A program made the position numbers and the translations under genes. The notes under the pieces were generated by a model. It was not told where the DNA came from. It saw nothing but the letters and a program-made list of their open reading frames with translations, and did no database searches. Shown one piece after another: positions 7,885 through 31,504 of a DNA stretch of 41,156 nucleotides (position 1 is its first letter; the number at the start of each line of letters is the position of its first letter). This DNA comes from Oceanobacter kriegii DSM 6294 (lineage in GTDB: Bacteria > Pseudomonadota > Gammaproteobacteria > Pseudomonadales > Oceanobacteraceae), in contig NZ_AUGV01000024.1 in assembly GCF_000422845.1 (NCBI RefSeq), positions 1 to 41,156 of the forward strand, read 5' to 3'.

Positions 7885-8058
7885 GGTCGTAATCCCTAAG
7901 AAATATGAGAACACTGATAGTGTACCCCCTATGCAACAATCAGAAAACTGGGGTTACAAAATATTTAGTGAATTTGCTGTGACATTTTTACGACTTTCGG
8001 CGTGAATCCATCACCAATCAGTCGATTGTCGGACAAAGCATGGCCTCTGCCATCATCG

Positions 8059-8517: not shown

Positions 8518-8741
8518 GGCTTTCAAATGTATCGGAGTTCTGCACTAAAAATCCCTGGCACCAAGTATTTAATGAATCAGAAAATAGCCATTAAGCCTGT
8601 ATGCAATGTCTGGCAGGTTTAAGTTTGGTTACAAAGCCTTACAGCCGTGGAGGTTTGCGCTGTATTCAGGCAGAATTGCGCTCTTGTTTGATGGTGAAGC
8701 GGTGTGTTCCATCAGAACCGCTTGAAAATGGAAATGTGTCA

Positions 8742-10529
8742 ATGGAAATGGATGCGTCAGCAGCGTTTTCTTACTACATCGTTGCTTTAACGCTGGTCAG
8801 TGTTCTGGGTGCCTTGGCTCTGAACCTGTATTCCGCAGAAAAACTCTTTGTGGCTGGTTTGGCCGTGATTCTTGTGGCCGGTGTACTGGATGCCAATACT
8901 CTGTTCACAGGCTTTGCTAATCCTGGCATTTTCACCATTGCCGCCCTGTTTGTGGTGGTGGGCGGCCTGCGTGAATCCGGTGCCACGCAGCTTCTGCGTC
9001 GTTATCTGGTGGGGTCGCCTAAAAGCCAACGCGCCGCGGCGGCTCGTGTCTTACCCGTTACCACCTTGCTGAGCGCAGTGGTCAATAACACCCCTGTTGT
9101 CGCCATGTTCGTTACTTTGCTGCAAAGCCAAAGTAAACGCTTCAATATCCAACTGTCTGGCATACTGCTGCCGGTTAGTTATGCCTCTGTTATCGGTGGC
9201 ACTTGTACTCTGATTGGCACCAGCACCAACCTGGTGGTGGATGGCATGGTTCAGCAGCGTGGCCTTCCGGGGTTGGGGTTGTTCGATATCGCTTGGGTAG
9301 GCGTTCCAATTGCTGGCGCAGGCTTGCTGTACATATTCCTGTTTTCCAAATGGCTGTTGCCGCATCGTGAAGGCTCTTCTGAGCAATTCGATCAGGTTCG
9401 TGAATACCTGGTGGAAATGATTATTCAGCCGGGCAGTGAACTTGTGCGGAAATCCATCCATGATGCCGGTTTACGTAATTTACCGGGTTTGTTCCTGGTC
9501 GAAATTGAACGTGAAGGCCAAATCATTTCAGCGGTGCGTCCACGGACTGTTATGGAAGAAGGGGATCGGCTGGTGTTTGCCGGTAGCCCGGAATCCGTTA
9601 TGGAGTTGCGTAATATCCATGGCCTTGCACTGGCTAATGACCAGCGCTTTAAATTGGATGGTAGCCGCTCCGACCGGCGTTTGTTTGAAGCCGTGTTGTC
9701 GCCGTCAAACCCGATGGTTGGTCAGACCATTCGCGAATCCCGTTTTCGGCATCGTTACAGTGCGGTTGTGTTGAGTGTGTCTCGTCATGGTCAGCGCTTG
9801 CGCGGTAAGTTGGGTGACCTTGTTCTGAAAGAAGGCGATACCTTGCTGGTGGAAGCTCAAAAAGGCTTCCTGATGCGTCACCGCAACAGTCGGGACTTCT
9901 TGCTGGTTAGTAAACTTGGCAATCCAGCGGTGATGGACGAAAAACAGGCCAAGGTGTCGTTGGCTATTTTCGCCCTTATGCTGCTTGCATCGGGTTCCGG
10001 CTTGGTGGGGATTCTGGAAAGCTCAGTGGTGGCTGCCATCAGCATGCTTGTTTGCCGTTGCATTAGCTACGAAGATGCTGGTAAATCCATCGATTACCCC
10101 GTCTTGCTGGTTGTTGCGTGTGCATACGGCGTTGGCTTGGCCGTTCAAAAAGTAGGCCTGGCTGACCAAATCGCAACGGGCTTGCTCACCCTGGCAGATT
10201 CACCACTGACGGCATTAATAGCCGTATACGTAGCAACGGTGGCGTTAACAGAGTTAATGACAAACAACGCCGCAGCAATTGTTATGTTTCCCATTGCCAT
10301 GAGTGTCAGCAGCAGCCTTGGCGTTAACTATGAAGCCTTCGTCATAGCGATTATGGTAGCTGCGTCCGCCAGTTTCATGACACCTACCGGATACCAAACC
10401 AACCTGATGGTAATGGGGCCGGGAGGTTACAAATTTGCCGATTATCTTAAATTTGGAGCGCCACTCAGCTTGACGGTCGCACTGATCAGTTGGTTAGTGA
10501 TTCCAGCCGTTTGGCCGTTCACAGGATGA
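8742..10529 (+). CDS. SLC13/DASS-family permease with two TrkA-C (RCK_C) domains, probable sulfate transporter
   Basis: The protein (595 aa from ATG 8742) is an inner-membrane anion transporter of the divalent anion:sodium symporter type. Around eleven hydrophobic helices flank a central soluble part (about residues 215-400) with two TrkA-C domains (IIQPGSELVRKSIHDAG and LSPSNPMVGQTIRESRF). Family hallmarks are the VNNTPVVAMF and TLIGTSTNLVV segments in the first half and LMTNNAAAIVMFP and SFMTPTGYQTNLMV in the second. Family members include algal SAC1/SLT sulfate transporters. Because cysC, cysQ, cysD and cysN follow at once, sulfate is the likely substrate; this is inference from context. 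The start is uncertain: ATG 8748, ATG 8691 or GTG/ATG positions back to 8601 stay in frame, but the first helix begins just after 8760. Confidence 0.82.
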   Translation: MEMDASAAFSYYIVALTLVSVLGALALNLYSAEKLFVAGLAVILVAGVLDANTLFTGFANPGIFTIAALFVVVGGLRESGATQLLRRYLVGSPKSQRAAAARVLPVTTLLSAVVNNTPVVAMFVTLLQSQSKRFNIQLSGILLPVSYASVIGGTCTLIGTSTNLVVDGMVQQRGLPGLGLFDIAWVGVPIAGAGLLYIFLFSKWLLPHREGSSEQFDQVREYLVEMIIQPGSELVRKSIHDAGLRNLPGLFLVEIEREGQIISAVRPRTVMEEGDRLVFAGSPESVMELRNIHGLALANDQRFKLDGSRSDRRLFEAVLSPSNPMVGQTIRESRFRHRYSAVVLSVSRHGQRLRGKLGDLVLKEGDTLLVEAQKGFLMRHRNSRDFLLVSKLGNPAVMDEKQAKVSLAIFALMLLASGSGLVGILESSVVAAISMLVCRCISYEDAGKSIDYPVLLVVACAYGVGLAVQKVGLADQIATGLLTLADSPLTALIAVYVATVALTELMTNNAAAIVMFPIAMSVSSSLGVNYEAFVIAIMVAASASFMTPTGYQTNLMVMGPGGYKFADYLKFGAPLSLTVALISWLVIPAVWPFTG

Positions 10530-10546
10530 ACCCTTAAGGAGTTATC

Positions 10547-11179
10547 GTGAAAAACGACAATATCGTTTGGCACAATCACGAAGTGGATAAATCCATCCGC
10601 TCATTTATGAAAAAGCAACGCCCCTGCTTGCTGTGGTTTACCGGCTTAAGCGGCTCGGGCAAATCGACTATTGCTGGTGCAGTAGAAAGCATTCTGGCAG
10701 AGCGGTTGCATCACACCTACTTGATGGATGGTGACAATGTACGTCATCGCTTGTGTGGTGATCTGGGCTTTTCCGAAGACGACCGCATTGAGAACATCCG
10801 TCGGGTTGGTGAAGTCGCAAACCTGATGGTCGACGCTGGCCTGATTGTACTTACGGCGTTCATTTCTCCGTTCCGCAGCAATCGCGAAATGGTCCGCGAA
10901 ATGCTTGGTGACGGTGAATTCATCGAAGTTCATATCGACACCCCAATTGAAGTATGTGAAGGCCGTGACCCTAAAGGGCTATACCAAAAGGCCCGTGCCG
11001 GTTTGATCAAAGACTTCACCGGAATCGACTCGCCATACGAAGCGCCGGACAACGCCGAAATTCGCATTGTTAACCACAATATCAGCGTAAAAGAAGCCGC
11101 TCAGCAGGTTATTGACTACCTGGATCGCCACGGCTATCTGAAACCAACAAAAGGAGCTTCTGATGCCGTCATTGGTTGA
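10547..11179 (+). CDS. cysC: adenylylsulfate kinase
   Basis: CysC phosphorylates APS with ATP to make PAPS, the sulfate donor for both sulfite formation and sulfotransferases. The 210-residue protein has the Walker A loop [12 protein letters not shown], the APS-contacting segment [20 protein letters not shown], the [11 protein letters not shown] loop bearing the family's phospho-serine, and [14 protein letters not shown]. The GTG start at 10547 is supported by AAGGAG 7 bases upstream. It begins 17 bp after the permease gene and overlaps cysQ by 17 bp, so the three form one transcription unit. It is a separate protein, not fused to CysN. Confidence 0.96.
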
Positions 11180-11984
11180 TCAGGTTGTCGCCATCGCACG
11201 CCAGGCTGGTGATGCGATCATGGAAATTTATGAAACTGACTTCGAAAAGTACGAAAAGAGCGACGCCAGCCCTTTGACCGAAGCAGACCTGGCAGCGCAC
11301 AAACTTATTTGCGCAGAACTGGCCAAAATCAGTGAGTTTCCAATTCTGTCGGAAGAGTCTTCCAAAGACGAAATTGAATGGGAAAACCGCAAGAACTGGA
11401 ACACCTTCTGGATTGTAGATCCGCTGGATGGCACCAAGGAATTCATCAAAAAAAGCGGTGAATTTACCGTTAACATCGCCTTGGTGAGCGAAGGCAAAGC
11501 GAAGCTTGGCGTGGTGTACTGTCCACCATTGAACCGCATGTACTTCGCTACGGAAGAGCAAGGGGCTTTCCGCCAAGACGCCGATGCCGAGCCGGTGAAA
11601 CTGCAAGTAGCATCCGAGCCTCAAGGTGACGCCAACTGGAACGTAGTTGGCTCCAAAAGCCATGGTGCCGAAGCACTGGCTGCTTTTAGTGAGCAGTTGG
11701 GTAATGTGAACCTGGTATCCATGGGCAGCTCCTTGAAACTGTGCATGGTGGCCGACGGTCAGGCACACCTGTACCCACGCCTGGCGCCTACTTGCGAATG
11801 GGATACCGCGGCAGCACAAGCCATTGTTGAGCACGCAGGTGGCAAAGTACTTACCCCATCGCTAGAACCGCTGTTGTACGGTCAGAAAGAAGATCTTCTG
11901 AACCCGTTCTTTATTGTATGTGCCACCCAAAATGAACGTTGGGGCAAGGTGTTTACCGAACTGGCAACGCCAGCAAACGCATAA
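11163..11984 (+). CDS. cysQ: 3'(2'),5'-bisphosphate nucleotidase
   Basis: CysQ hydrolyses PAP (adenosine 3',5'-bisphosphate) to AMP, removing the inhibitory by-product of PAPS use. It is a 273-residue member of the inositol monophosphatase-like, Mg2+-dependent, Li+-sensitive family. The metal-binding motif [13 protein letters not shown] is intact, with the upstream EES of ILSEESS and the C-terminal motif [26 protein letters not shown] sits just before the ATG. Its fusion by overlap with cysC couples PAPS formation and PAP removal, which makes sense if a sulfotransferase is active downstream. Confidence 0.95.
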
Positions 11985-11993
11985 AGACGCTTG

Positions 11994-12088
11994 TGGGGAT
12001 GGGACATGCCCCATACGTACGGCCTAGCCGGATAAAACGGTAATGGCCCGTAGGTTGGATAAACGAGCGCAGCGAGCGCCATCCAACA
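11994..12088. repeat. two REP-like modules between cysQ and cysD
   Basis: The first module, GGGATGGGACATGCCCCAT...GCCGGATA (from 11994), also occurs after ugd at about 24963. The second (12050-12088) is the GTAGGTTGGATAA...GCCATCCAACA hairpin. The remaining sequence to 12236 should contain the cysD leader. Confidence 0.75.
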
Positions 12089-12236
12089 CAGCAGCTTGCG
12101 CATTGGGCCTAACCGAATGGCACGGCCAAAAGATTCCATGCGTTGCGCGCCTCTGTGCGCACAAACGTACAAAAGCATTTGAATTGAAATAAACGCGCTG
12201 GACACTGGTTCTAAACCTCCGGCAAGGGAATTGATC

Positions 12237-13148
12237 ATGAACATCAGCAAAAAACGCCTGACGCATCTGAAACAGCTGGAAGCTGAAAGCATCCACATCA
12301 TTCGTGAAGTAGCTGCAGAATTCGATAACCCTGTAATGCTTTACTCTGTGGGTAAAGATTCGGCTGTGATGCTGCACCTGGCCGCCAAAGCATTCTACCC
12401 AGGTACGCCTCCATTCCCGCTGATGCATGTGGATACCACCTGGAAATTCCGCGAAATGATTGAATTTCGTGACCGCAAAGCCAAAGAGCTGGGCATGGAA
12501 CTGCTGGTACACACCAACCAGGAAGGCGTTGCTCAAGGTATTGGCCCATTCACCCACGGTTCGTCTGTGCACACCGACGTGATGAAAACCCAGGCGTTGA
12601 AGCAAGCACTCGACAAATATCAATTCGACGCTGCTTTCGGTGGTGCCCGTCGGGACGAAGAAAAATCCCGCGCCAAAGAGCGTGTTTACTCCTTCCGCGA
12701 CAAAAACCACCGTTGGGACCCAAAAAACCAGCGTCCAGAATTGTGGAACACCTACAACGGCCGCATTAACAAAGGCGAAAGCATCCGCGTATTCCCGCTT
12801 TCCAACTGGACAGAACTGGACATCTGGCAGTACATCTACCTGGAAAACATCGAAATCGTTCCACTGTACTACGCCGCAGAACGCCCGGTTGTTGAACGCG
12901 ACGGCATGCTGATTATGGTCGACGACGACCGCATGCCAGTGGAACAAGACGAAATTCAACACAAAATGGTCCGCTTCCGCACGTTGGGCTGCTACCCACT
13001 GACCGGTGCGGTGGAATCTGAAGCGGCAACCCTGCCAGAAATTATTCAGGAAATGCTGCTCACCACCACATCCGAACGCCAGGGCCGTGCGATCGACCAC
13101 GATTCCGCGGGCTCAATGGAAAAGAAAAAAATGGAAGGCTACTTCTAA
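12237..13148 (+). CDS. cysD: sulfate adenylyltransferase subunit 2 (ATP sulfurylase small subunit)
   Basis: CysD with the GTPase CysN forms the bacterial ATP sulfurylase, converting sulfate and ATP to APS. The 303-residue protein is a PP-loop adenylating enzyme: the loop [13 protein letters not shown] is near residue 35, followed by the [12 protein letters not shown] segment, [16 protein letters not shown] and the C-terminal [16 protein letters not shown] 12237 ([15 protein letters not shown]) is preceded by AAGGGA at 7-8 bases; the TTG at 12231 is less likely. Unusually, cysN does not follow directly: 681 bp of mostly repeat sequence lie between. Confidence 0.96.
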
Positions 13149-13184
13149 CAAACAAGCAGAAAGCTTGCTTTGCATACAAACGGT

Positions 13185-13662
13185 TGTGGGAGCGGGTTTG
13201 TATCCAACGAGCTATGCAGGGTGTACAAAACGTAGGAGCTGGCTTGCCTGCGATAGGCTGGCAATTGCGCAAGATCGGCAATTGATGGGCACCAGTGCCC
13301 ATCCTATCTATATGCCTGTCGGCGGTAGCTTGCTGCCGATGATGTAACCTGCTTCCGTTAAACCCTGTGGAAGCAGGCTTGGCATTGCGGTAAAGGCATC
13401 GGTGCGCATTACGCAGCCTACAATCGCCAAAAACATAACCGTTCGGCACAAAGCCCGTAGGTTGGATAAGCGAGCGCAGCGAGTGCCATCCAACACAGCA
13501 GCGCTGGTTTGTAGGTTGGGCCTCGCCCAACAGCCTTTACTTAGGATGTATTAGCGGAACGCGTAATACATCAGAAGCAAGCGAATGTACTGGTGCGCAT
13601 TACGTACGCACCCTGTAAGGCTGCTCTCTTACCGGGAGCGCGGGCGGCCCGCCCGCAATAAA
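13185..13662. repeat. mosaic of REP-like modules splitting cysD from cysN
   Basis: Modules include TGTGGGAGCGGGTTTGT; GTAGGAGCTGGCTTGCCTGCGAT; a GGCAATTG/CAATTGCC-type dyad with GATGGGCACCAGTGCCCATC; GGCGGTAGCTTGCTGCCGAT; AACCTGCTTCCG...GTGGAAGCAGGC; the GTAGGTTGGATAAGC...GCCATCCAACA hairpin (13457-13495); GTAGGTTGGGCCTCGCCCAACA; ATGTATTAGCG...CGTAATACAT (13546-13571); and GGGAGCGCGGGCGGCCCGCCCGC. No gene is supported. The stretch 13663-13829 before cysN is unique and would have to hold any cysN promoter. Confidence 0.85.
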
Positions 13663-13829
13663 ACGTAGCGCCACCAACAACAGCGAAAAAATTTAAGGGC
13701 CTGCTCGCGTACAGCACCAAACGCGCAGTCCCAAACGAAACAACACCGGTTTGCCCCACATCGGCCAAACCGAAACAAATTTAATGTATGGATACTCCAG
13801 CCCCGCTGGAATGGACAGAAGGTAAAAAA

Positions 13830-15236
13830 ATGGCTCACGCATCAGATATGATCGCCGACGACATCCTCGGCTACCTGAAACAACACGAAGAAAAAGACAT
13901 CCTGCGCTTTCTGACTTGCGGCAACGTAGACGACGGCAAGTCCACCCTGATCGGTCGTCTGTTGCACGACTCCAAACTTATCTTCGAAGACCAGCTGGCA
14001 GCCATCAAAAAGGACTCCCAGAAATTCAACACCACCGATGAAGAGTTCGATCTGGCACTGCTGGTAGACGGCCTGCAATCCGAGCGTGAGCAAGGCATCA
14101 CCATCGACGTTGCCTACCGCTACTTCAGCACCGACAAGCGCAAATTCATTATTGCCGACTGCCCGGGGCACGAACAGTACACCCGTAACATGGCCACTGG
14201 TGCTTCCAGCTGCGACGTAGCAGTGATCCTGATTGATGCCCGTAAAGGCATTCAGACCCAAACCCGTCGCCATAGCTACATCGTATCTTTGCTGGGCATC
14301 AAAAACGTAATCGTTGCCGTCAACAAAATGGACCTGGTGGACTTCAGCGAAGACGTATTCAACCAAATCAGTGCCGACTATCAGGCCTTTGCTGCAAACC
14401 TGGGCTTCAAAAACATCTACCCGGTTCCGCTGTCTGCCCTGAAAGGCGATAACGTAGTAGACCGCAGCACCAAATCCGATTGGTACACCGGCCCAACGAT
14501 GATCGAATTGCTGGAAAGTGTTCAAGCCAGCAACGAATTGGCCGAACAGTTCGATGGCTTCCGCATGCCAGTGCAATACGTAAACCGTCCAAACCTTGAT
14601 TTCCGTGGTTTCTGCGGCACAGTAGCAGCGGGTGAACTTCAGCCAGGCGATACCATCACTACACTGCCATCCGGTAAGCAATCCAAAGTTGCACGTATAG
14701 TGACTGCCGACGGCGATCTGGACCTGGCCGTCGCAGGCGAAGCCATCACCATTACCCTGGAAGATGAAATCGACATTTCCCGTGGCGACATCATCTACAC
14801 CGGCAAAGCGCCACTGTTTGGCGATACCTTTACCTCCGAGCTGGTATGGATGCACGAAGATGCCCTGCAAGTAGGCAAGGAATACCTGTTCAAAGCAGGC
14901 ACCAAAAGTGTGTTTGGCAAAGTAACCGCCATTCAGCACCGTGTTGATGTAAACACCATGGAACACATCACAGCAGAACAACTGCAACTGAACGAAGTGG
15001 GCCAAGTGACCGTAGACTTCAACAGCGCATTGGCGCTGGACGAATACAATCAGGTTGCTGGCACTGGCAGCTTTGTAGTCATCGATCGCATCAGCAACGT
15101 CACCATTGGCGCCGGTATGGTTCGTAGCCTGGAAGAGCAAGGTGCTCAAAAATCCATTGCCGATATGAGCTACGAAGAACGCTTGGCGGCGTTTAACCGT
15201 GAAGTTGAAGTTTTGGCGCGTAAGTATTTTTCTTGA
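13830..15236 (+). CDS. cysN: sulfate adenylyltransferase subunit 1 (GTPase)
   Basis: CysN is the EF-Tu-like regulatory GTPase that drives APS synthesis by CysD. The 468-residue protein shows the G motifs in order: [17 protein letters not shown] (G1), [12 protein letters not shown] (G3), NKMDLVD (G4) and the SAL motif (G5), followed by two beta-barrel domains. It stops at the normal end of the GTPase part, so there is no C-terminal CysC fusion, in line with the separate cysC upstream. ATG 13830 (MAHASDM) has AGAAGGT upstream; an in-frame ATG at 13788 would add 14 residues unlike the family. The first polysaccharide gene starts 13 bp after its stop, so cysN appears to lead that operon. Confidence 0.96.
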
Positions 15237-15249
15237 TGGGCTTGCATCA

Positions 15250-16269
15250 GTGAAAGTATTAATTGTTGCTAACCTGTATCCAACGGAGCAAAAGCCCCAC
15301 TTCGGAACGTTTGTGCGGAGTTGCTATGAAGGTTATCTGGATCAGGGGATAGATGTAGATTTAGCTGTTCTGAAAAAGGGGGGAGCCATCGGTTATCTCG
15401 CTTTCTACTGGGCAGCTTTTTCGAAGCTGCTGTTTGGACGATATGACTATGTGCACGTGCACTATGTCAGTCATTCGGTTGCGCCAGTTCTTATGGCCAG
15501 AATCTTCAAGAAGGTCAAGGTTCTATTAAATTTCCATGGAAGTGACGCCTTTCCAGAGGCCTTTGAAAGTAAGCGAAGAGCATCTTTGAAACGATGGATA
15601 AATCAAAAAGCGCTTGATAATTCATGGTTGACGATCGTTCCAAGTGAATACTTTAAACGTAAGATGATGTCAGCCTACTCTTTGAAGGACGTATTTGTTT
15701 CTCCATCTGGTGGAGTAGACCCAAAAAAATTCAAATACAACTTTGTACATCGAAAATCGGTGCTGTTCGCTGGTCGTATGATTCCCGAAAAAGGCGCTGT
15801 TGTTGCTGCCAATGCGGTTAGGGAGAATCAGAAACTTATTGAAGAAGCATGCTTCATTGGCGACGGTCCTGATTTATCAGATGTTAAAAAGTTGCTCTCG
15901 GAGGTTAGTGTCGAATTTAAGGGACTACTTCCCCACTCCGAACTGGCAGATCAAATGTCCAGACATCAGATTTTTTTATTCCCTAGTACCCGTGAAGGGG
16001 AGTCTTTGGGTTTGGTTGTTGTCGAGGCAATCTTTGCAGGAATGATACCGTTGGTGATCGACAATGGTGCTGTCAGGGAAATTATACCTGAGCGATTAAC
16101 GGCATTGTTGGTGGTCTCTTCTAGTGCTGAACTCGCTGAATCACTAACTAACTTGTTACACTTGAGTGATATGGCACTGCTTGATATCAGTTCCGAGTTG
16201 ATTAGATTTGCTGAAGTTAAATATGGCTCTCTGGAAGTAAGCAGAGCGCTCTGTGCGAGGTTGGTTTGA
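15250..16269 (+). CDS. glycosyltransferase family 4 (GT-B, retaining)
   Basis: A cytoplasmic transferase of 339 residues adding a sugar to the lipid-linked repeat unit. The Rossmann start is VKVLIVANLYPTEQKPHFGTF; the C-terminal GT1/GT4 domain has the sugar-nucleotide segments SVLFAGRMIPEKGA and the E-x7-E motif in STREGESLGLVVVEAIF. Donor and linkage cannot be predicted. I chose GTG 15250; frames extending to 15199 overlap cysN and add residues unlike the family. There is no strong ribosome site, so translation may depend on coupling to cysN. The next gene starts one base after its stop. Confidence 0.88.
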   Translation: MKVLIVANLYPTEQKPHFGTFVRSCYEGYLDQGIDVDLAVLKKGGAIGYLAFYWAAFSKLLFGRYDYVHVHYVSHSVAPVLMARIFKKVKVLLNFHGSDAFPEAFESKRRASLKRWINQKALDNSWLTIVPSEYFKRKMMSAYSLKDVFVSPSGGVDPKKFKYNFVHRKSVLFAGRMIPEKGAVVAANAVRENQKLIEEACFIGDGPDLSDVKKLLSEVSVEFKGLLPHSELADQMSRHQIFLFPSTREGESLGLVVVEAIFAGMIPLVIDNGAVREIIPERLTALLVVSSSAELAESLTNLLHLSDMALLDISSELIRFAEVKYGSLEVSRALCARLV

Positions 16270-16270
16270 T

Positions 16271-17161
16271 ATGCCAAATTTCTTTATATTGGGTTTTACT
16301 AAGTGTGCTACAACAAGCATATATGACGCCTTGTCGCGCCACCCAGATGTATCAGCTCCAAGAGTAAAAGAGCCTCATTTTTACTTTTCACGTATACATG
16401 GCTCTGATTTTACTGGGCCTGCTGATGATCATACGGTTAATCAAATGTTTGTCACCGATATTGATAACTACAATAGCCAGTATGACTACAGTAAGAAAAT
16501 TCAAGTTGATGGTTCTGCGATGTCAGTAGAAAGCCTTGAAACAATGCGACTTATCGCTGAGGAAAACCCAGAGGCAAAAGTGCTTATAATGTTGAGGGCG
16601 CCTCTGGGACGGTCTTTTTCTGCTTACTCTCATATGGTTAGAGATGCTAGAGAAAAATATAGTTTTCGAGATGCTATATCTAAAGAGCTTGAAGGAAAGA
16701 AAGAAGGATTTTTACCTATATGGATGTATATTGACTCGAGCCGGTACTCGGAAAGGGTCAGGGTTGCAAGGGAGCTATTTGGTGATCGGCTTATGATAGG
16801 TCGATATGAAGACTATATAGGAAATCCGTTTGAATTTATGGATTCGGTATCAGGGTTTTTGGGAATTGATTCTATCGATTGGAAACTGGAGCACTCGAAT
16901 AAGTCTGGAGTTCCGAAGTTTAAAATTCTACAGAGGATTATTCAGAGGGATTCTCCTTTAAAACGTCTTTTCGTTCGCCTATTTCCTCGTAAACAGGTGG
17001 CGGAACTGAAAAAATACATCATGGAATTGAATCGGGGGGATAAGCCAAAATTGAAGGAGGAAGATGCGGATTATTTGAAAGTTTTGTTGGCAAATGAAGC
17101 GGGGAAGTGTGATGAACTTGAGATTAGAGATAAAAATGTAGTTAAGGACTATTATGCTTAA
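16271..17161 (+). CDS. PAPS-dependent sulfotransferase (probable polysaccharide O-sulfotransferase)
   Basis: The 296-residue protein matches the carbohydrate sulfotransferase (Sulfotransfer) fold. The 5'-phosphosulfate-binding loop is FILGFTKCATTSIYDALSRHP at the very N-terminus (Lys and Thr-Ser as in heparan N-deacetylase/sulfotransferase-like enzymes), and the 3'-phosphate motif is MLRAPLGRSFSAYSHM at about residues 100-118. It would transfer sulfate from PAPS to a sugar hydroxyl or amine of the repeat unit in the cytoplasm, having no signal peptide. ATG 16271 follows the GT stop by one base. Neighbouring cysC/cysD/cysN supply PAPS and cysQ removes PAP, which strongly supports the role. The exact acceptor is unknown. 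Confidence 0.9.
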   Translation: MPNFFILGFTKCATTSIYDALSRHPDVSAPRVKEPHFYFSRIHGSDFTGPADDHTVNQMFVTDIDNYNSQYDYSKKIQVDGSAMSVESLETMRLIAEENPEAKVLIMLRAPLGRSFSAYSHMVRDAREKYSFRDAISKELEGKKEGFLPIWMYIDSSRYSERVRVARELFGDRLMIGRYEDYIGNPFEFMDSVSGFLGIDSIDWKLEHSNKSGVPKFKILQRIIQRDSPLKRLFVRLFPRKQVAELKKYIMELNRGDKPKLKEEDADYLKVLLANEAGKCDELEIRDKNVVKDYYA

Positions 17162-18413
17162 TCTCAGCGCTGGAATCAGCTCCCTCAGAACTTTATGTCT
17201 ACTGCTTTTCTTTCTGGAAGTCATATCTGCATTTTTTCGGAAGATTTCGCCAGGCTATTATTCGTATTTTGATTCATTTGAGAAGCTTTTTGTTGTCGTT
17301 TTTTTGGGGGCGTTTTTTTATTTTTACGGGAGTTTTAATCGGAGCTTGAAGTTCTCTTTTGCTCTGTACGTTCTCTATGTGATCGTCGGTAGCGCTACCG
17401 CTTTAAGCAATGGTGTATCCATAGGGATTGTTGCATTTCAAATATTTCATGAGTGTAAGTACTTTGTTTTTTTCTATGTGGCGGTTTTTCTGAGTTGCCA
17501 TCAGGTTGACAATGATGGGCGAGAAAAAGCATTTTATAAATTTTGCTTTTTGATCTTACTATTATCGATCGCACTTTATATTTTCAGAGTTTTGGAAACG
17601 GGACTTTATGAAAATTTATTTAGTAACGGTGGTCACCACGAGAAGGGCTACATAGGGAATTTCGTTTTAGATAGGGCCGCCGGTGTTTTCTGGCACCCAG
17701 CTCAGCTTGGATTTTTTGCTTTATTTAGTTCGGTGCTATTTTTGCAAAGACTGACAGGTGAAAGCTCTGAAAGAGGCATTGCGCTATCCGGGCTACTTCT
17801 TTCAATGTTGTGTTTGTTAATATCAGTACAGCGTCTCGAGGCCGCTGTTATGTTCTGCTCTTTTCTCTTATGTTGCTGGAAATATACATTTCGAGAATCT
17901 GATTTCAGAGGCGGGGCATTGCTAGGTGTTAATCTCGGTTTTTTTGTTATTTTCTCCACCGTCTTTGTTGCTGTCTACGGTTTTACAGAAAATGTTTATA
18001 TTTTTCTTGATGAGGTTTCTTCTCCGCGAGCGTTGATATTTCAGGAAGCTTTGTATGTTCTTCAGGGGAATTTCTTTAATGGCGCTGGCTGGGGTGTAGT
18101 TGGTAGCCATGCAGCGGCTGACCTTACAGAATCCTATTACTACACGGATTTATTAGATACTTGGTGGTGGCAAGAAAGAAAGTTCTTATATGACACCTAC
18201 TGGCCTCATGTTTTCGGTGAAACCGGCTTGTTAGGGGGAGTTTTTCTTATTTCATCTATGGCTGTTTTGATATTAAGTGTTAAATCATTTTGGGTTCGAC
18301 TATTAGTGCTGGTGTTCTTTATTACGGGTTTGTTCTCTTCTAATATGCAGTCTGTTTTCTTTTTGGTGCTAGCTCTTAACTTTATGATTTTCATAGGAGG
18401 TCGGCGTGTTTGA
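17154..18413 (+). CDS. wzy: Wzy-like polysaccharide polymerase, polytopic membrane protein
   Basis: This 419-residue protein has about ten to twelve hydrophobic helices and a larger polar loop near residues 300-365 with GAGWGVVGSH and YWPHVFGETGLLGG, the type of loop and position seen in O-antigen/exopolysaccharide polymerases. It would join repeat units at the periplasmic face after Wzx transport. Sequence identity among Wzy proteins is low, so the call rests on topology, loop and context between sulfotransferase and flippase genes. AAGGA precedes ATG 17154, which overlaps the sulfotransferase stop by 8 bp. It is very AT-rich with long T runs. Confidence 0.75.
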   Translation: MLNLSAGISSLRTLCLLLFFLEVISAFFRKISPGYYSYFDSFEKLFVVVFLGAFFYFYGSFNRSLKFSFALYVLYVIVGSATALSNGVSIGIVAFQIFHECKYFVFFYVAVFLSCHQVDNDGREKAFYKFCFLILLLSIALYIFRVLETGLYENLFSNGGHHEKGYIGNFVLDRAAGVFWHPAQLGFFALFSSVLFLQRLTGESSERGIALSGLLLSMLCLLISVQRLEAAVMFCSFLLCCWKYTFRESDFRGGALLGVNLGFFVIFSTVFVAVYGFTENVYIFLDEVSSPRALIFQEALYVLQGNFFNGAGWGVVGSHAAADLTESYYYTDLLDTWWWQERKFLYDTYWPHVFGETGLLGGVFLISSMAVLILSVKSFWVRLLVLVFFITGLFSSNMQSVFFLVLALNFMIFIGGRRV

Positions 18414-19035
18414 TTGTGTGGCTGATATAGACAGTCAAATAGTGTGCTTTTCTCCTTCTTCTGGTGCTCTTAGAGGCATCAAGGAATTATGCTGTGGTGG
18501 GGCGCATAAGGACGAGAGTCGAGCCGATCTTACTAGGAATGGTCTGGTCTTGGAATCATATTTAGGAAGAACGGAGCTGGTTACTGAGAGGCTTCCTTTG
18601 CTAGATGATATTAATATTCGATTTGATTTTTCTATAGATCATTTGGTGGAAAGAAGTTCGATTTTTCAGATTATTTATTATCAGCCTCCCTGTTTTAATC
18701 AAGGCAATTATCAGTTGGTGTCGGATAATGGTGGGTTGTCTTTTATCGCTAGAAATTTGTATGGTGCTTCTGATTCTGAATACTACCTTTCGGATTATGA
18801 GGAGGGGGTAGAATATACTTTGAAGGTTTCTGCGAGCTTTTCTATAGTCGACGGGTATTTCAATCTGAAGCTTTCTAGCGGTGATGAGGTGCTCTTTGAT
18901 AAATCCCTTGTTGAATCTGGTTCTACTGGTGTTGATTGTCCTTTAGGTCCATATGTGAAAGCAGGCCCTTATGGGAATATTAAGGATGGTGCTGTGATGA
19001 CCGTTCATGGTTTAGAGGTTTATTATGCGAAATAA
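18406..19035 (+). CDS. unrecognised beta-rich protein with polysaccharide-lyase-like motifs
   Basis: I cannot assign a family with confidence. The 209-residue protein has no signal peptide or membrane helix and reads as alternating strands with turns. Three segments resemble, in the right order, the motifs of jelly-roll lyases of the PL7/heparin-lyase type: GRTELVTER (compare R-[S/T]-E-L), IFQIIYYQP (compare Q-I-H) and YVKAGPYGN near the C-terminus (compare Y-F-K-A-G-x-Y). The catalytic His of the QIH motif is not conserved, so it may bind rather than cleave glycan. GTG 18406 is supported by AGGAGG 5 bases upstream and overlaps wzy by 8 bp; it overlaps the next gene by 11 bp. A sugar-modifying or chain-binding role in the repeat-unit pathway is only inference. 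Confidence 0.55.
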   Translation: MFDCVADIDSQIVCFSPSSGALRGIKELCCGGAHKDESRADLTRNGLVLESYLGRTELVTERLPLLDDINIRFDFSIDHLVERSSIFQIIYYQPPCFNQGNYQLVSDNGGLSFIARNLYGASDSEYYLSDYEEGVEYTLKVSASFSIVDGYFNLKLSSGDEVLFDKSLVESGSTGVDCPLGPYVKAGPYGNIKDGAVMTVHGLEVYYAK

Positions 19036-19465
19036 AAAGGTACTAGCTATAGCTTCTCAAGGTGGTCACTTAGTCCAACTTCTTAGGATTAAGCCTCTTT
19101 TTGAGGAGTATGATGTTACTTACTCCTCAAATATAAATTCTTATAAAGGGATTGAAATGGAGAAGGTTGTTGATGCTAATATGAGTAATAAATTCAAGCT
19201 TTTTCTTCAGTTCTTTCAAGTGGCTTGGTTGATGTTGCGTTTACGCCCGGATGTTGTAGTAACAACAGGTGCTTCAGTAGGTTTTTTTGCTATTTTAGTT
19301 GGTAAGTATTTAGGAGCAAAAACTATCTGGATCGACAGTATTGCCAATTCAGAAGAGTTATCACTTTCTGGAAAGAAGGCTAGAGCAATTGCTTCACATA
19401 CTTATAGCCAGTGGGAGTCTGTTGCCCAGGCTGAGAATGTTGATTACATAGGTAATGTATTATGA
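19025..19465 (+). CDS. pssD: Alg14/PssD-like glycosyltransferase membrane subunit
   Basis: PssD/Alg14-type proteins anchor and activate a partner carrying the sugar-nucleotide site. The 146-residue protein begins with VLAIASQGGHLVQLLR, the acceptor-side motif of GT28-like enzymes, has a hydrophobic segment in the middle (FQVAWLMLRL), then VVTTGASVGFFA and KTIWIDSIAN. Length fits PssD/Cps14F. It overlaps the Alg13-like gene by four bases (ATGA), as usual for the pair. Related pairs in rhizobia transfer glucuronic acid to lipid-linked glucose. The symbol is by analogy. Confidence 0.85.
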   Translation: MRNKKVLAIASQGGHLVQLLRIKPLFEEYDVTYSSNINSYKGIEMEKVVDANMSNKFKLFLQFFQVAWLMLRLRPDVVVTTGASVGFFAILVGKYLGAKTIWIDSIANSEELSLSGKKARAIASHTYSQWESVAQAENVDYIGNVL

Positions 19466-19929
19466 TCTTCTTGTCCGTTGGTACTCAGCTGTCATTTGAC
19501 CGGTTAGTCCGTTGTGTTGATGAGTTTGTTGAGTTAAACCCCGATATTGAAGTCTATGGTCAGATAGGTAGAGGCGGGTATGTACCAAGAAACTTTGAAT
19601 TTTGCGATTTCCTAGGCTCGAGAGAATATGAAAGAATTTATGCTGATGCGAATCTTGTCATTGCGCATGCAGGAATGGGGACTATTTTAAGTTGTCTTGC
19701 AGATTCTAAGCCGATGGCCCTTATGCCAAGACGCCATGCTTTGGGTGAGCATAGAAATGACCACCAAGTAGCGACTATGAATAATTTTTCTCAATATGGA
19801 GCTTGCCAATTTTTTGAAACAGTTTCTGAGTTAGAAAGGATCTGTTCCAACCCTATTATGGAGTCATCTTTGGGGAACTCCTTTGCAAATAGTGAGTTTA
19901 TCGATAATCTAAGGAAGGTTATAGGGTAA
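19462..19929 (+). CDS. pssE: Alg13/PssE-like glycosyltransferase catalytic subunit (GT28 C-terminal)
   Basis: A 155-residue catalytic partner of the preceding protein. It begins MIFLSVGTQLSFDRLVRCVD, has the UDP-sugar-binding segment VIAHAGMGTILSCLADSKP and ends the core with MPRRHALGEHRNDHQ, all typical of Alg13/PssE/Cps14G. With ugd at 23792 making UDP-glucuronate and an undecaprenyl-phosphate glucose-type transferase at 27737, GlcA as second sugar is a reasonable inference. The acyltransferase gene begins at the next base after its stop. Confidence 0.86.
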   Translation: MIFLSVGTQLSFDRLVRCVDEFVELNPDIEVYGQIGRGGYVPRNFEFCDFLGSREYERIYADANLVIAHAGMGTILSCLADSKPMALMPRRHALGEHRNDHQVATMNNFSQYGACQFFETVSELERICSNPIMESSLGNSFANSEFIDNLRKVIG

Positions 19930-20943
19930 ATGTATCTGGGTTATATTCATAGTTTTCGTGGTTTGGCGATAGTTTATGTCGTTTTGGGGCATTGCTTTGC
20001 ACTATCCGGAGTCTCAGACGACTACTGGGGGGTATGGTTTAACGTTATTTCAGGTGGTACGGTTCTCTTTGTCTTTATATCTGGCTACCTATTTGAATAT
20101 GTATTTTGCAATAGGTTTAACTATCGGGTTTTTATAAGGAAGAAATTCCTACATGTTTTTGTTCCTTATGTGTTCATGTCTGCGCCTGCTTTGTTGTATG
20201 TTCTTTGGAAAAATGAATCGACTTATTTTCCCTCTTATAGTGATTATGGTGAGATGGCGAGTTATGCGGCGAGTTATTTTTTTAATGGTAGGATGATAAC
20301 TGGGTACTGGTTTGTTCCATTTGTTTTTGTTGTGTTTCTACTAGCTCCTGTTTGGCGGTTTCTGGCATCTTTTGAATATGTTCTTGTTGTTCTTTCAGTT
20401 GTAGGTGTATTTCTTGCTTCAATTGTTCATCGCCCTTATGGAAATATAGGGGTTTTTCATAACTTGGTATACTACCTTCCTGTTTTTTGGGTCGGTATGG
20501 TTGTGTCTAAGAAATCTGATTCATTAAACTCTTTTTTTTCTGATTATTGGTGGGTTTTTTCTTTAGGGGTGGTCCTTCTCTTGCTTGTTCAAACTTGGGG
20601 GCAGGGTCATCTGGGGCAATATAGAAAGAGTTTTTTTGAGTACTCGGGTTTTGATCTTCAGATATTTCAAAAACTATTCGTTTGTTTCTCTTTAGTTGGG
20701 CTTCTTCAGGTGTGTTCGTTGTTTGAGCGTTTTTGGGGCTTTTTGGCCGATAACAGTTTTGGTATATACTTTGTTCATGTTTATTTTGTTTTCTTGTTGA
20801 AATATGCTTTTGAATTTTACGAGGTTTCTGGTTGGTTGGCGTTTGGATTGGGGTTTGTTTTTTGTATGCTAGCATCTTTATTGGTTGTTGTTTCTGCAAA
20901 GGGGGTTTTTGGTAGGTACAGTCGATATATAGTAGGTTCCTAA
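19930..20943 (+). CDS. acyltransferase 3 family protein (OafA/WecH-like)
   Basis: The 337-residue membrane protein opens with YIHSFRGLAIVYVVLGH, the R-x10-H signature of acyltransferase 3 enzymes, and has about ten hydrophobic helices with FISGYLFEYV and YWFVPFVFVVFLLAP. Members O-acetylate or O-succinylate glycans across the membrane. It would decorate the repeat unit, adding to sulfation. It is T-rich and is the last gene of the AT-rich cassette, ending one base before wzx. Confidence 0.88.
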   Translation: MYLGYIHSFRGLAIVYVVLGHCFALSGVSDDYWGVWFNVISGGTVLFVFISGYLFEYVFCNRFNYRVFIRKKFLHVFVPYVFMSAPALLYVLWKNESTYFPSYSDYGEMASYAASYFFNGRMITGYWFVPFVFVVFLLAPVWRFLASFEYVLVVLSVVGVFLASIVHRPYGNIGVFHNLVYYLPVFWVGMVVSKKSDSLNSFFSDYWWVFSLGVVLLLLVQTWGQGHLGQYRKSFFEYSGFDLQIFQKLFVCFSLVGLLQVCSLFERFWGFLADNSFGIYFVHVYFVFLLKYAFEFYEVSGWLAFGLGFVFCMLASLLVVVSAKGVFGRYSRYIVGS

Positions 20944-20944
20944 T

Positions 20945-22225
20945 ATGGGTATTAGAGTCGGCGCTGTTTTTGCCAAAGCTGTTCAAACTGCTGTTGTAAG
21001 AGTGTTTGCGATACTGACATCTTTCCTTGTTACTATTTTGGCAACCCGAGGCCTTGGCGCGGAGCAAGCGGGTTATTTTCTGCTGGGTTTTACTCTGGTA
21101 ACGGCACTTTCTACGTTTTTACGACTCGGGTTGGATAACGTGCTGGTGCGTGCATTTGGCGCAGATGGCATGTCCAAGGAGCCATTGAACACCTTTGCTT
21201 ATGCTTTGCGCTGGGCAGCTGTGGTGGCATGTGCAGCGGGTGTTCTGGGGTGTGTATTTTCCAGTGCCATCGCCCTGCACGTGTTTGGTAAGCCGGAGTT
21301 TGCAGATGCCTTGTTCTGGATGATGCTGGCGTTACCTTTGGTGGTGTTGTTTAACCTTTGTTCCTTTGCTTTTCAGGGGCTGCATCGGGTGGTGGCGGCT
21401 ACCTGGTTTCAGCAGTTGGGTGCGGGTTTTGTGTTCGTGCTTCTATTTGCTCTGGTTTGGTGGCAGCAACCATCGTGGTTGAGTTCTGGCAATGCTGCCT
21501 TGCTGTTTTTTGTGGCTGCCTTGCTAGTTAGCGTTATGGCCGTTGTTTTGTGGATGCGCCAAAAAGAATCCAGCATCCCCGCATTAGGAGGAAAATGGAA
21601 AAACGCGGAGCTGTGGGAGTCCAGCTCTAACCTGTGGGCGGCGGCAAGTATGAGTTTGCTGGTGCAGTGGTCTGGGGTCCTGATTGCGGGGGCGCTTATT
21701 GCGTCTTCCGAACTGGCACATTTGTCAGCGGCGCAGCGCACGGCGAATATTACATCGTTTGTGCTTATGGTTGTGAATATGGCTGTTGCTCCTCGTTATG
21801 CTCGGTTGTGGAAAGAGCAAAAGCTGGATGAACTGCGTCAGTTGGCACGTATTTCTACCCGTGCCATGATCGCCATGGTATTGCCTGTTGTGGCCATTAT
21901 GCTGGTCTTTCCCGGGTTTATTCTAGGTCTGTTCGGTGAAGGGTTCGAACAGGGAGCGTTACTGCTGAGTATTATGGCTATTGGCCAATTTATTAACGTA
22001 GCGACCGGCTCTGTTGGTTATTTGCTGAATATGAGCGGCCATGAAAAAGATATGCGCCGGGTGACCATGTTTGCAGGCCCATTGACCATTATTTTGGCGT
22101 TTGTGTTAACCAGTGAATTTGGTGCTGTTGGTGCTGCTGCGGCTACCGCGATTGGTGTGTCTGTTCAGAATTTGGGTGCACTGGCGATGGTAAAACGACG
22201 TTTGGGGTTCTGGCCCATTGGATAA
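20945..22225 (+). CDS. wzx: Wzx-type polysaccharide flippase (MOP superfamily)
   Basis: The 426-residue protein has about twelve TM helices with the polysaccharide-synthesis (RfbX-like) start VFAILTSFLVTILATRGLGAEQAGYF and paired helices around a polar FQGLHRV loop. It would flip the undecaprenyl-linked, modified repeat unit to the periplasm. Only its first about 100 bases share the AT-rich character of the genes on the left; the rest matches manC and ugd in base use. That places the cassette boundary inside or next to this gene. The manC TTG start overlaps its stop by 8 bp. Confidence 0.88.
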   Translation: MGIRVGAVFAKAVQTAVVRVFAILTSFLVTILATRGLGAEQAGYFLLGFTLVTALSTFLRLGLDNVLVRAFGADGMSKEPLNTFAYALRWAAVVACAAGVLGCVFSSAIALHVFGKPEFADALFWMMLALPLVVLFNLCSFAFQGLHRVVAATWFQQLGAGFVFVLLFALVWWQQPSWLSSGNAALLFFVAALLVSVMAVVLWMRQKESSIPALGGKWKNAELWESSSNLWAAASMSLLVQWSGVLIAGALIASSELAHLSAAQRTANITSFVLMVVNMAVAPRYARLWKEQKLDELRQLARISTRAMIAMVLPVVAIMLVFPGFILGLFGEGFEQGALLLSIMAIGQFINVATGSVGYLLNMSGHEKDMRRVTMFAGPLTIILAFVLTSEFGAVGAAAATAIGVSVQNLGALAMVKRRLGFWPIG

Positions 22226-23726
22226 GTCGGCTGGTTCTGGGCCTGTAATTTGCCCGGTGGTTCTCTCTGGCGGCCCGGGCACTCGCCTGTGGCCGCTTTC
22301 TCGCGCCTCCTACCCCAAGCAGTTTTTGAATTTGTTTGGGGCGCATTCTCTTCTGTTACAAACCTTCAGCCGTCTGGGCGGGTTGCCTATCTCGTCGCCA
22401 CTGGTGGTGTGCAATGATCAACACCGATTCTTGGTGGCAGAGCAACTGCGAGAAAGCGGCATGGAGGCGTCTATTTTGCTTGAGCCGGTTGGTCGCAATA
22501 CTGCGCCTGCGATTGCTGTTGCTGCTATGCAGCTATTGGAATCCGTAGAGCCATGCGAAGTACCTTTGATGCTGGTTTTACCAGCTGATCACAACATTGA
22601 AGATGTTGAGACTTTTCATCGCGCCGTGCTTTCTGTTATCCCCGCCGTGCAGTCCGGAAAGATTGCAACACTGGGTATTGTTCCGGATTCAGCGAATACC
22701 GGGTTCGGCTACATCCGCGCTAATACCTGCGTTGAAAGTGCTGACTGCTCGGTGTTTTCTGTTGCTGAATTTGTCGAAAAGCCAGATTCTGAAACCGCTA
22801 AAAGGTACGTGGCTGATGGTTGCTATTACTGGAATAGCGGCATGTTTTTATTTCGAGCCGATGTTTATTTAACCGCTTTGAAAAGGTTTCGTCCGGATAT
22901 TTATTCTGCCAGCTTGGCGGCTTTTGGGGGTGCATCTGCAGATCTGGATTTTATTCGGCTGGATAAGCAGGCGTTTGAAGCCTGCCCGTCTGAATCCATC
23001 GATTATGCCGTTATGGAGCCTTTGTGCACTTCTGATCCTGATGCTGTGATTATGGCGCCATTGTATGCCGGGTGGAGCGACGTTGGTAGTTGGAATGCCT
23101 TGTGGAGCCTGGCAGATAAAGATGAGAACGGTAATGCAACTTTGGACGCTAGTGGCCAAGGCGTAGATGCCGCAGGAATATTGTCGCGGCCAAGTGTCGT
23201 AATGGAGCAGTCATCCAATTGTTTTATTGCTCATCAGCAGCGCCTTGTCACTGTATTGGGTTTGGAAAATGTCGTGATCGTCGATACCGACGACGCCTTA
23301 CTGGTTGCGCACAAGGATAAAGTTCAGGACGTTAAGCTTATCGTAGAGAAGCTCCATTCACAGGGGGCTCCAGAGCTTGATAGTCACCGACGAGTGTATC
23401 GTCCATGGGGGCGTTACGATTTGATAGGTGAGGGTGAGCGGTACCAGGTCAAGCGTTTGGTCGTGCGGCCAGGCGGTTGTTTGAGTGTTCAGTTGCACCA
23501 TCACCGTGCTGAACATTGGGTGGTCGTTTCTGGTACTGCTCGCGTTACCAATGGTGATAGCAGTTATCTGGTTAGCGAAAATCAGTCCACTTATATCCCC
23601 ATCGGCCAGATTCATGCATTGGAGAACCCGGGGGATGCAGAGCTGGTGCTGATTGAAGTCCAGTCTGGCTCTTATTTGGGTGAGGATGATATTGTTCGCC
23701 TTAAGGATTTGTATGGGCGAGCGTAG
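22218..23726 (+). CDS. manC: mannose-1-phosphate guanylyltransferase / mannose-6-phosphate isomerase
   Basis: A bifunctional type II enzyme (502 aa, usual about 480) that makes GDP-mannose from mannose-1-phosphate and GTP and interconverts fructose-6-P and mannose-6-P. The nucleotidyltransferase motif reads [14 protein letters not shown], with Pro where Ser, Thr or Ala is common; [10 protein letters not shown] and WNSGMFLF follow. The C-terminal cupin isomerase domain (about 390-502) has [24 protein letters not shown] and [14 protein letters not shown]. The start must be non-ATG: TTG 22218 overlapping the wzx stop fits best. No phosphomannomutase gene is in the window. Confidence 0.94.
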
Positions 23727-23791
23727 TTGTTAGGTGTTCTATTCGCTTTGACTGTTGGCTTTGCTTTATTGATAGTTTCAGGAATTTATTT

Positions 23792-24958
23792 ATGAAAATT
23801 GCAGTTGCAGGGACGGGTTATGTTGGTTTGTCCAATGCGGTCTTGTTGGCTCAACATAACGAAGTAGTGGCACTGGATATTGTTCCAGAGAAAGTGGACA
23901 TGCTGAATCGACGCGAGTCGCCGATTGTGGATGCGGAAATCGAAGAATATTTTGCAAACCACGATCTGAACTTGCGTGCCACCTTGAACAAGGAAGAAGC
24001 GTACGTCGGTGCTGAGTTTGTGGTTATTGCCACGCCGACCGACTACGACACGGTTAATAACTATTTCAATACGCGTTCTGTTGAAGCGGTAATCAAAGAC
24101 GTGATGGCCATCAACCCGAATGCGGTGATGATTGTTAAGTCGACCATTCCGGTTGGTTACACTCAACGTATTAAAGAAGAGTTTGGCAGCAGCAATATTA
24201 TTTTCTCGCCAGAGTTTTTGCGCGAAGGTAAGGCGCTGTACGACAACTTGTATCCTTCTCGTATCATCATTGGTGAGCAGAGCGAACGCGCTGAGCGATT
24301 TGCGGGCTTGCTGCTGCAAGGTGCTATCAAGAAGGAAGTGGATACGCTGTTTATCGACTCTACGGAAGCGGAGGCCGTTAAGCTGTTTTCCAATACTTAC
24401 CTGGCGATGCGTGTAGCTTACTTCAACGAATTGGATACCTACGCTCAAACCCACGGTTTGAACACTCGCCAGATTATTGAAGGCGTTGGTCTGGACCCTC
24501 GTATTGGTAACCATTACAACAACCCGTCGTTTGGTTATGGTGGTTACTGCCTGCCTAAAGATACCAAGCAGCTGCTGGCTAACTTCAATGAAGTACCGAA
24601 CAACCTCATTCGTGCGATTGTGGATTCCAACAGCACTCGTAAAGACTTTATTGCCGACAGTGTGCTGGCTCGTAAGCCTCAGGTTGTAGGTATATACCGT
24701 CTTGTGATGAAGTCTGGTTCTGATAACTTCCGAGCTTCGGCGATCCAGGGGGTTATGAAGCGCATCAAGGCCAAAGGTGTTGAGGTTGTGGTGTATGAGC
24801 CTGTGTTGGAAGAAGACGACTTCTTCAATTCTCGGGTAATTCGTGACCTGGAAGAGTTCAAGAAGGTTTCTGATGTGATCATCGCCAACCGTCAGGATGA
24901 GGTGTTGGCTGATGTGGCTGAGAAGATCTATACCCGCGACTTGTTTGGTAAAGACTGA
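23792..24958 (+). CDS. ugd: UDP-glucose 6-dehydrogenase
   Basis: Ugd oxidises UDP-glucose to UDP-glucuronate with two NAD+, in the cytoplasm. The 388-residue protein has the NAD-binding start [28 protein letters not shown], the [13 protein letters not shown] segment and the catalytic Cys in [14 protein letters not shown]. Length and motifs match the E. coli Ugd type rather than GDP-mannose dehydrogenase AlgD (about 436 aa). CAGGAA lies 11 bases before ATG. It is the last gene of the operon, 65 bp after manC, and supplies the acidic sugar expected from the PssDE-like pair. Confidence 0.94.
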
Positions 24959-30841: not shown

Positions 30842-30870
30842 GCCTTAACTCACTATATTCTTGCTTAAGT

Positions 30871-30902
30871 CATCGGCCTGCCTTGCAGGCCGATGGTGTT
30901 TT
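30871..30902 (+). terminator. strong hairpin between barrel gene and wza
   Basis: CATCGGCCTGC (30871-30881), loop CTT, GCAGGCCGATG (30885-30895), then GTGTTTT. A perfect 11-bp GC-rich stem with a short T-run suggests partial termination or 3'-end protection of the barrel mRNA. Confidence 0.6.
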
Positions 30903-30929
30903 GGTAAGTTGCTAAACAGGATGTCTTCA

Positions 30930-31499: not shown

Positions 31500-31504
31500 T
31501 TGTG

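Follow-up and report, generated by a model that had tools for sequence, protein, structure and literature searches.

Few bacterial polysaccharide loci are known to carry their own genes for sulfate activation. The capsule locus of Cobetia marina KMM 1449 contains cysN/cysC, cysD, cysQ and a sulfate permease together with a sulfotransferase (ST), and the structure of its product, determined by nuclear magnetic resonance, includes sulfated rhamnose (PMC11766843). Vibrio sp. KMM 8419 has a second cysC, cysN and cysD in a sulfated-capsule locus with STs; its authors regard genes for 3′-phosphoadenosine-5′-phosphosulfate (PAPS) plus an ST as a hallmark of sulfated polysaccharide synthesis, and another strain of the same species has a completely different capsule locus (PMC11641403). 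In rhizobia, NodPQ and NodH provide extra sulfate activation for carbohydrate sulfation where the host CysH prefers adenosine-5′-phosphosulfate (APS), and a nodPQ mutant of M. loti failed to make sulfated polysaccharides (PMC6192434). Synechan (xss) of Synechocystis is a sulfated exopolysaccharide (EPS) of the Wzx/Wzy type with STs in its cluster (PMC13125312). Here we describe a contig of Oceanobacter kriegii DSM 6294 (NZ_AUGV01000024.1, 41,156 nucleotides, analysed whole and hereafter the window) in which a permease gene, cysC, cysQ, cysD and cysN lie on one strand (8742 to 15236) and run into a Wzx/Wzy EPS locus whose second gene encodes a PAPS-type ST. We interpret this as a sulfated-EPS locus with its own supply of activated sulfate, at a probability of roughly 0.83.

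The initial annotation of this DNA called such arrangements rarely described, which is fair, although the Cobetia and Vibrio loci show that the kind is already published from at least two other marine bacteria, to which this locus adds a clear new example. It differs from them in its Wzx/Wzy export, its separate CysC, its placing of a cross-genus block of genes at the edge of changing ones and in holding the sole APS kinase gene found in the genome. The following comparisons draw on the accessible portions of the published accounts. As in C. marina, cysD, cysN, cysC, cysQ and a permease accompany an ST within a marine polysaccharide locus; however, the Cobetia capsule is of the kps ABC-transporter type with a bifunctional CysN/CysC, whereas here the system is Wzx/Wzy, CysC and CysN are separate and the block sits at the locus edge. 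Vibrio sp. KMM 8419 likewise combines cysD, cysN, cysC and an ST in a polysaccharide locus, and cysDN is a second copy in both, but its cysC is also a second copy while ours is the only one found. Moreover, that account describes a kps ABC transporter and, in those portions, mentions neither cysQ nor a permease, whereas here Wzx, Wza, Wzc and WcaJ are joined by both. We take kps ABC export to be a property of the two published examples and not of the sulfation module. NodPQ-NodH targets Nod factors and lipopolysaccharide, outside any Wzx/Wzy EPS gene row, unlike the genes described here. Synechan shares the Wzx/Wzy type and the ST; it is cyanobacterial and no PAPS-synthesis genes are named for its cluster in those portions, whereas here the PAPS genes stand in the locus.

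The window is an entire contig (C19) of a 4.5 Mb genome in 36 contigs that is 99.8% complete. All genes described from it below as part of the locus are on the forward strand. The first of the block (8742..10529) encodes an SLC13/DASS-type permease with TrkA_C domains (CitMHS 210 bits, TrkA_C 92 bits), presumed to import sulfate. Its open reading frame (ORF) opens at 8601, but similarity to relatives begins close to the ATG at 8742, which was therefore adopted as the start. For the sulfate uptake named by the initial annotation, an SLC13/CitMHS permease is present; its score against the NCBIfam DASS model is 111 bits, far under the cut-off of 198.6, and sulfate is therefore only its presumed substrate. 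The remaining four products all exceed their NCBIfam cut-offs: CysC, the APS kinase (10547..11179; NF003013, 315 bits, cut-off 163); CysQ, the phosphatase for 3′-phosphoadenosine-5′-phosphate (PAP; 11163..11984; TIGR01331, 287 bits, cut-off 229); CysD2, the small subunit of ATP sulfurylase (12237..13148; NF009214, 546 bits, cut-off 413); and CysN2, its GTPase subunit (13831..15236; NF003478, 686 bits, cut-off 590). The longest ORF for cysN2 starts at 13788, and the ATG at 13831, kept in an alignment of relatives, is its likely start. A gap of 682 bp (13149..13830), holding dispersed intergenic repeats, separates cysD2 from cysN2, compared with about 300 bp in four congeners. CysC and CysN2 are separate ORFs with no CysN-CysC fusion, whereas the rhizobial NodQ is a fused CysNC. 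A GT4 glycosyltransferase (15250..16269; PF00534, 67 bits) follows, its GTG start, read from the sequence, lying 13 bp past the cysN2 stop, and then the ST (16253..17161). The gene order given by the initial annotation, with the ST second among the polysaccharide genes, was thus confirmed by ORFs, NCBIfam, Pfam and PDB entry 3rnl.

The block is conserved well beyond this strain. A CysN of the block type (at least 68% identity) occurs in 6 of 55 genomes: our own, G002, Oceanobacter sp. 4A09 (G003), Oceanobacter mangrovi SM2-42 (G005), an Oceanobacter metagenome-assembled genome (MAG; G006) and G016. A search for relatives placed G003, G005, G006 and Parathalassolituus penaei (G004) in the window's genus, so that the block is present in five of the seven genomes of Oceanobacter, while G016 belongs to another genus of the same family. 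The order permease-cysC-cysQ-cysD-cysN is preserved in all six. Moreover, a scan of the genome_contigs collection with the permease, covering the best 80 of 254 relatives (three of which were G003, G005 and G006 again), found the full block in Shewanella corallii (L139) and in an Oceanospirillaceae MAG (L140); there may be more beyond these 80. The five genes are therefore syntenic in eight loci, with the permease first and polysaccharide genes adjoining in every one, which excludes chance as the cause of the arrangement. In a tree, CysN2 of the eight loci forms a single clade (support 99/99) apart from the housekeeping CysN, whose representative in this genome (C1:163809-165188) is 62% identical to CysN2. 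Origin of cysD2N2 by recent duplication of the housekeeping pair was ruled out on both grounds.

In contrast to the block, the genes between it and the right part of the locus mostly differ among species; ManC stays, and Wzx is common to the window and G002. The right part (UDP-glucose dehydrogenase, MBL, WcaJ, Wza, Wzc) is whole in G002 and Oceanobacter sp. 4A09 and is present in the Oceanobacter MAG to WcaJ, as far as was fetched; the contig of O. mangrovi ends inside the dehydrogenase. The left flank is also stable, with a phosphatase-like gene and a p5816 gene in all five block-bearing genomes of the genus. G+C content is about 0.52 across the cys genes and drops to about 0.40 across 16-20 kb, which fits an exchange of genes in the centre of the locus.

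The ST itself matches PF13469 (46.8 bits) and PF00685 (32.6 bits), both above cut-off, and PDB entry 3rnl, "Sulfotransferase" (E 2.1e-39). It is the one match to each of these two families in the whole genome, which has no match to PF03567 anywhere; hence the sole APS kinase and the sole ST found in this genome lie about 5 kb apart. Motifs for 5′ (ILGFTKCATT) and 3′ (LRAPLGRSFS) PAPS binding can be read in it by a motif pattern, which initially missed this protein and was then loosened to admit it. Applied to the 1099 ORFs of 80 loci, the loosened rule picked out 3; the ST-like genes of L139, L140, O. mangrovi (L136) and the Oceanobacter MAG (L134) escaped it and were chosen by eye or by Pfam, so that it does not amount to a census. 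No strongly hydrophobic stretch is present (top 19-residue mean 0.96) and we therefore take the ST to be cytosolic. Searched against the 55 whole genomes, the protein had matches in four including its own, the best relative being in G002 at 32% identity; a genome_contigs scan with this ST alone gave 29 pattern matches and no relative among them.

We then compared the ST content of the eight block loci. Four carry an ST above its Pfam cut-off, one of them marginally, two have sub-threshold matches only, one has a motif only and in one none was found. The window has one above cut-off, G002 two, and S. corallii one above and two below. The O. mangrovi protein belongs to a different family, Sulfotransfer_2 (26.2 bits, cut-off 22). 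Below cut-off only are the two STs of G016 and the one of L140. In the Oceanobacter MAG, a candidate has a PAPS-binding-like motif read by eye; a single-sequence AlphaFold2 model of it had a mean predicted local distance difference test (pLDDT) score of 32 and was not used. The ST-like genes flank the permease end of the block in G016 and L140 and both ends in S. corallii. Elsewhere, on other contigs or distant from the block, G001, G002, G003, G005 and G006 have a Sulfotransfer_3 protein with an open frame of 526-565 amino acids, for which the PF13469 search found no match in the window's genome.

Several observations weigh against a sulfated EPS with its own sulfate supply. Oceanobacter sp. 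4A09 carries the block, yet Pfam detected no ST in 16 ORFs of its variable region, three further ORFs before the UDP-glucose dehydrogenase being inspected by eye only. The O. mangrovi ST is marginal, because no single stretch of it passes the cut-off, and the candidate of the Oceanobacter MAG has no Pfam, PHROG or credible PDB match. Family searches of genomes can miss weak members, as the O. mangrovi Sulfotransfer_2 protein escaped the same-family search of its own genome, and the same limit applies to the statement that the window's ST is the only one in its genome. Conversely, P. penaei has the permease (L214:436-2010) and an EPS locus without cysC, cysQ, cysD or cysN there, which shows that the permease can occur independently of PAPS synthesis. 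The 13-bp spacing does not prove a single transcript across the cysN2/GT4 junction, co-transcription being inferred, and a scan of the window for promoters and terminators was at chance level (25 promoters against 22.8 expected, 18 terminators against 21.9). Moreover, literature on Oceanobacter polysaccharides, judged by titles, gave no data on polymer sulfate.

The P. penaei locus was searched for remnants of the cys genes and none were seen. Pfam searches of six of its EPS ORFs revealed no ST, and PF13469, PF00685 and PF03567 are all without a match in its genome. Its permease would be either what is left of a lost block or the stage that preceded gain of the block, and the genome is one natural contrast and not a statistic.

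Whether the PAPS is needed for cysteine depends on the CysH that a genome carries. APS reductases mostly have an Fe-S cluster and PAPS reductases lack one, although an Fe-S-free APS reductase is known in mosses and their kin (PMC2275785). A CysH match was present in 51 genomes, and the type was read in the 30 loci fetched: the Fe-S cysteines are present in 20 and absent from 9, and G048 could not be assigned. The five block-bearing relatives G002, G003, G005, G006 and G016 all have the Fe-S type, which is expected to reduce APS, and they should therefore not require PAPS for cysteine. That they keep cysC and cysQ beside polysaccharide genes favours a role in sulfation, and in four of the five the block cysC is the only one found, G016 having another. 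In addition, APS kinases and STs co-occur above chance across the 55 genomes, which also favours sulfation (24 with both, 14 with kinase only, 1 with ST only, 16 with neither; Fisher p=7.7e-5, uncorrected for relatedness). Here only PF13469 matches at E 0.001 were counted as STs, which makes G016 negative, and G035 was dropped from the kinase positives for its weak match (1.1e-4), leaving 38 and not 39 of 55. Within the window's own family alone the association weakens to p=0.051, a further point against sulfation.

Searching the whole genome for a second cysDNC set and for cysHIJ, as the initial annotation had proposed, gave a second cysDN, a cysH and PF01077 (nitrite/sulfite reductase domain) genes on other contigs, but no second cysC. 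PF01507 finds three genes: cysD2 in the window and, on C1, a cysH and the second cysD beside the second cysN. On contig C19, PF01507 matches cysD2 alone and PF01077 matches nothing, so the reported absence of cysHIJ from this stretch stands for cysH and the reductase domain, CysJ not having been searched for as such. The sole CysH of the genome is a 209-residue protein (G000:C1:471703-472329; L013:9700-10329, minus strand) without the Fe-S cysteines (CC, CxxC). Its score is 122.7 bits with the PAPS-reductase model and 58.4 with the APS model, neither reaching its cut-off, and its best PDB matches are PAPS reductases, 1sur and 2o8v first. Together with the single cysC this suggests that the same CysC probably supplies cysteine synthesis, and that in this genome cysteine and EPS share PAPS from the block. 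The protein is 26-29% identical to CysH of the six congeners and nearest in the set to those of G032 (71%) and G010 (64%); it looks as if it has replaced the usual enzyme in this genome.

This bears on the self-contained, dedicated PAPS supply seen by the initial annotation, which for this genome is unproven. A supply used for glycan sulfation only, with cysteine made without it, would fit the genes present in the five relatives that have an Fe-S CysH, and the short CysH might accept APS, given that G010 has the same type of CysH (64% identity) and no APS kinase match. We consider this unlikely for the window's genome, where CysH lacks the CC and CxxC cysteines, is closer to the PAPS model and has PAPS reductases as its best PDB matches; furthermore, an APS kinase is present in 8 of the 9 fetched genomes with a non-Fe-S CysH against 13 of the 20 with the Fe-S type.

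With its single cysC and a PAPS-type CysH, the genome may well use the block for cysteine synthesis too, and the block could then be an ordinary assimilatory set adjoining the EPS locus by happenstance. The arrangement cysD-cysN-SLC13-cysC does occur outside a sugar locus on a Vibrio europaeus plasmid (L221), one of two Vibrio records examined out of 347 that matched a plasmid search with CysN2. However, the genome has another cysDN, no cysH or sulfite reductase is linked to the block in the PF01507 and PF01077 searches of C19, and relatives with an Fe-S CysH retain a cysC and cysQ that they would not need for cysteine. Moreover, the block stays by polysaccharide genes in Oceanobacter, a second genus, Shewanella and the Oceanospirillaceae MAG, while the neighbours change across these loci and ST-like genes recur. 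Coincidence of an ordinary set is therefore improbable. The other Vibrio record, plasmid pVa1 of Vibrio alfacsensis (L220:14002-18196), has cysD-cysN-SLC13 permease near glycosyltransferase and XrtA/PEP-CTERM genes.

PAPS from the block might instead act mainly as a biofilm-control signal and not as donor to the polymer, as proposed for Vibrio vulnificus, in which mutation of cysD or cysC abolishes calcium-induced EPS gene expression and rugosity, although its authors made no direct measurement of PAPS (PMC6113621). A gene for a LapD-like cyclic di-GMP protein with GGDEF/EAL domains does lie upstream of the locus (2642-4630). Signalling requires no ST, whereas one is present in the gene row, and we regard a mainly signalling role as very improbable. 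The LapD-like gene is also present in G002, G005 and G006 and was not found in the left flank of G003.

Returning to a sulfated EPS with its own activated-sulfate supply, the gene products would act as follows. The permease would import sulfate, CysD2N2 would make APS and CysC would convert it to PAPS. The ST, taken as cytosolic, would then add sulfate to the lipid-linked repeat unit, or to a sugar precursor, ahead of flipping by Wzx, CysQ would clear the PAP by-product, and Wzy, Wzc and Wza would polymerise and export a polymer that we infer to be sulfated. Judging from ManC, UDP-glucose dehydrogenase and WcaJ, the unit may contain mannose, glucuronic acid and glucose, and an acyltransferase suggests an acyl group. 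In evolutionary terms, the five-gene block would stay fixed as a module along one edge of the locus while sugar and ST genes vary by species, and in this genome its cysC would probably serve cysteine synthesis as well. A bolder version, to which we give somewhat less than even odds, is that the block forms a fixed sulfation socket beside swapped, unrelated STs in a serotype-switching Wzx/Wzy locus, and that a PAPS-type CysH replaced an APS-reducing one, making the cysC of the EPS locus the sole source of PAPS for cysteine. If so, a variable surface-sugar locus would be tied to primary sulfur metabolism. For Wzx/Wzy loci of marine gammaproteobacteria, the block offers a portable genomic signature of sulfated EPS, and it points to diverse carbohydrate sulfotransferases that adjoin their own donor supply. 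Moreover, the genomes allow the sharing of sulfate between cysteine synthesis and surface sulfation to be compared in natural settings: the block with or without an ST, the permease on its own, and CysH of the APS or the PAPS type.

The rest of the locus is as follows. Downstream of the ST is a putative Wzy-like polymerase (17154..18413) with many hydrophobic windows, and then a 209-residue protein (18406..19035) with no match in Pfam or PHROGs, whose single-sequence AlphaFold2 model (mean pLDDT 32) was not used. Alg14-like (19025..19465; PF08660, 35.7 bits) and Alg13-like (GT28 C-terminal; 19462..19929; PF04101, 43.6 bits) halves of a split glycosyltransferase precede the O-acyltransferase (19930..20943; PF01757, 97 bits), the Wzx flippase (20945..22225; PF01943, 49 bits) and ManC for GDP-mannose synthesis (22218..23726; PF00483, PF01050). 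The Wzx/Wzy assignment of the initial annotation is thus good for Wzx, which matches PF01943, while Wzy is below cut-off (PF04932, 20.2 against 31.7 bits). UDP-glucose 6-dehydrogenase (23792..24958) exceeds the cut-off of TIGR03026 (329 bits, cut-off 190) and falls under that of NF011631 (694 bits, cut-off 757).

The locus had been ended at 24958; its genes continue to about 34436. They encode an MBL-fold/beta-CASP RNase-like protein (25781..27256; PF10996, 115 bits), present in the relatives' locus too, a WcaJ-type undecaprenyl-phosphate glucose phosphotransferase (27737..29140; TIGR03023, 551 bits, cut-off 411), a BBP2 outer-membrane barrel (29663..30841; PF10082, 121 bits), a Wza-type export protein (30861..31499; PF02563, 91 bits), a Wzc-type chain-length regulator/kinase (31502..33727; PF02706, PF13807; TIGR01007, 167 bits, cut-off 108) and finally a VpsP-like protein (33666..34436; NF038257, 40 bits, under the cut-off of 125). 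An Rfam search of the window gave no match.

A few minor observations remain. The housekeeping CysN1 (L012:8809-10416) has a C-terminal extension and matches a fused CysN-kinase model only up to position 492 of 632; the extension is perhaps a decayed remnant of a fused APS kinase. In congeners the housekeeping CysN seemed to contain a stop; inspection of G001 showed this to be where the cysD before it ends. A Candidatus Saccharibacteria MAG (L200:5282-17279) has a DASS permease with cysQ-like, cysC-like and ManC/UDP-glucose dehydrogenase-like genes nearby and a 309-residue gene product with ST motifs, an unexpected lineage for which a binning error is possible. Lastly, a dense mosaic of dispersed intergenic repeats, including GTAGGTTGGGCC-CGCCCAACA and TAGGATGTATTAGCGGAACGCGTAATACAT, occurs in the window at 1201-1860, 4721-5096, 8025-8527, 12046-12095, 13315-13577, 24962-25617, 34464-35013 and 40696-40796, some of them in tandem with units of about 220 and 132 bp.

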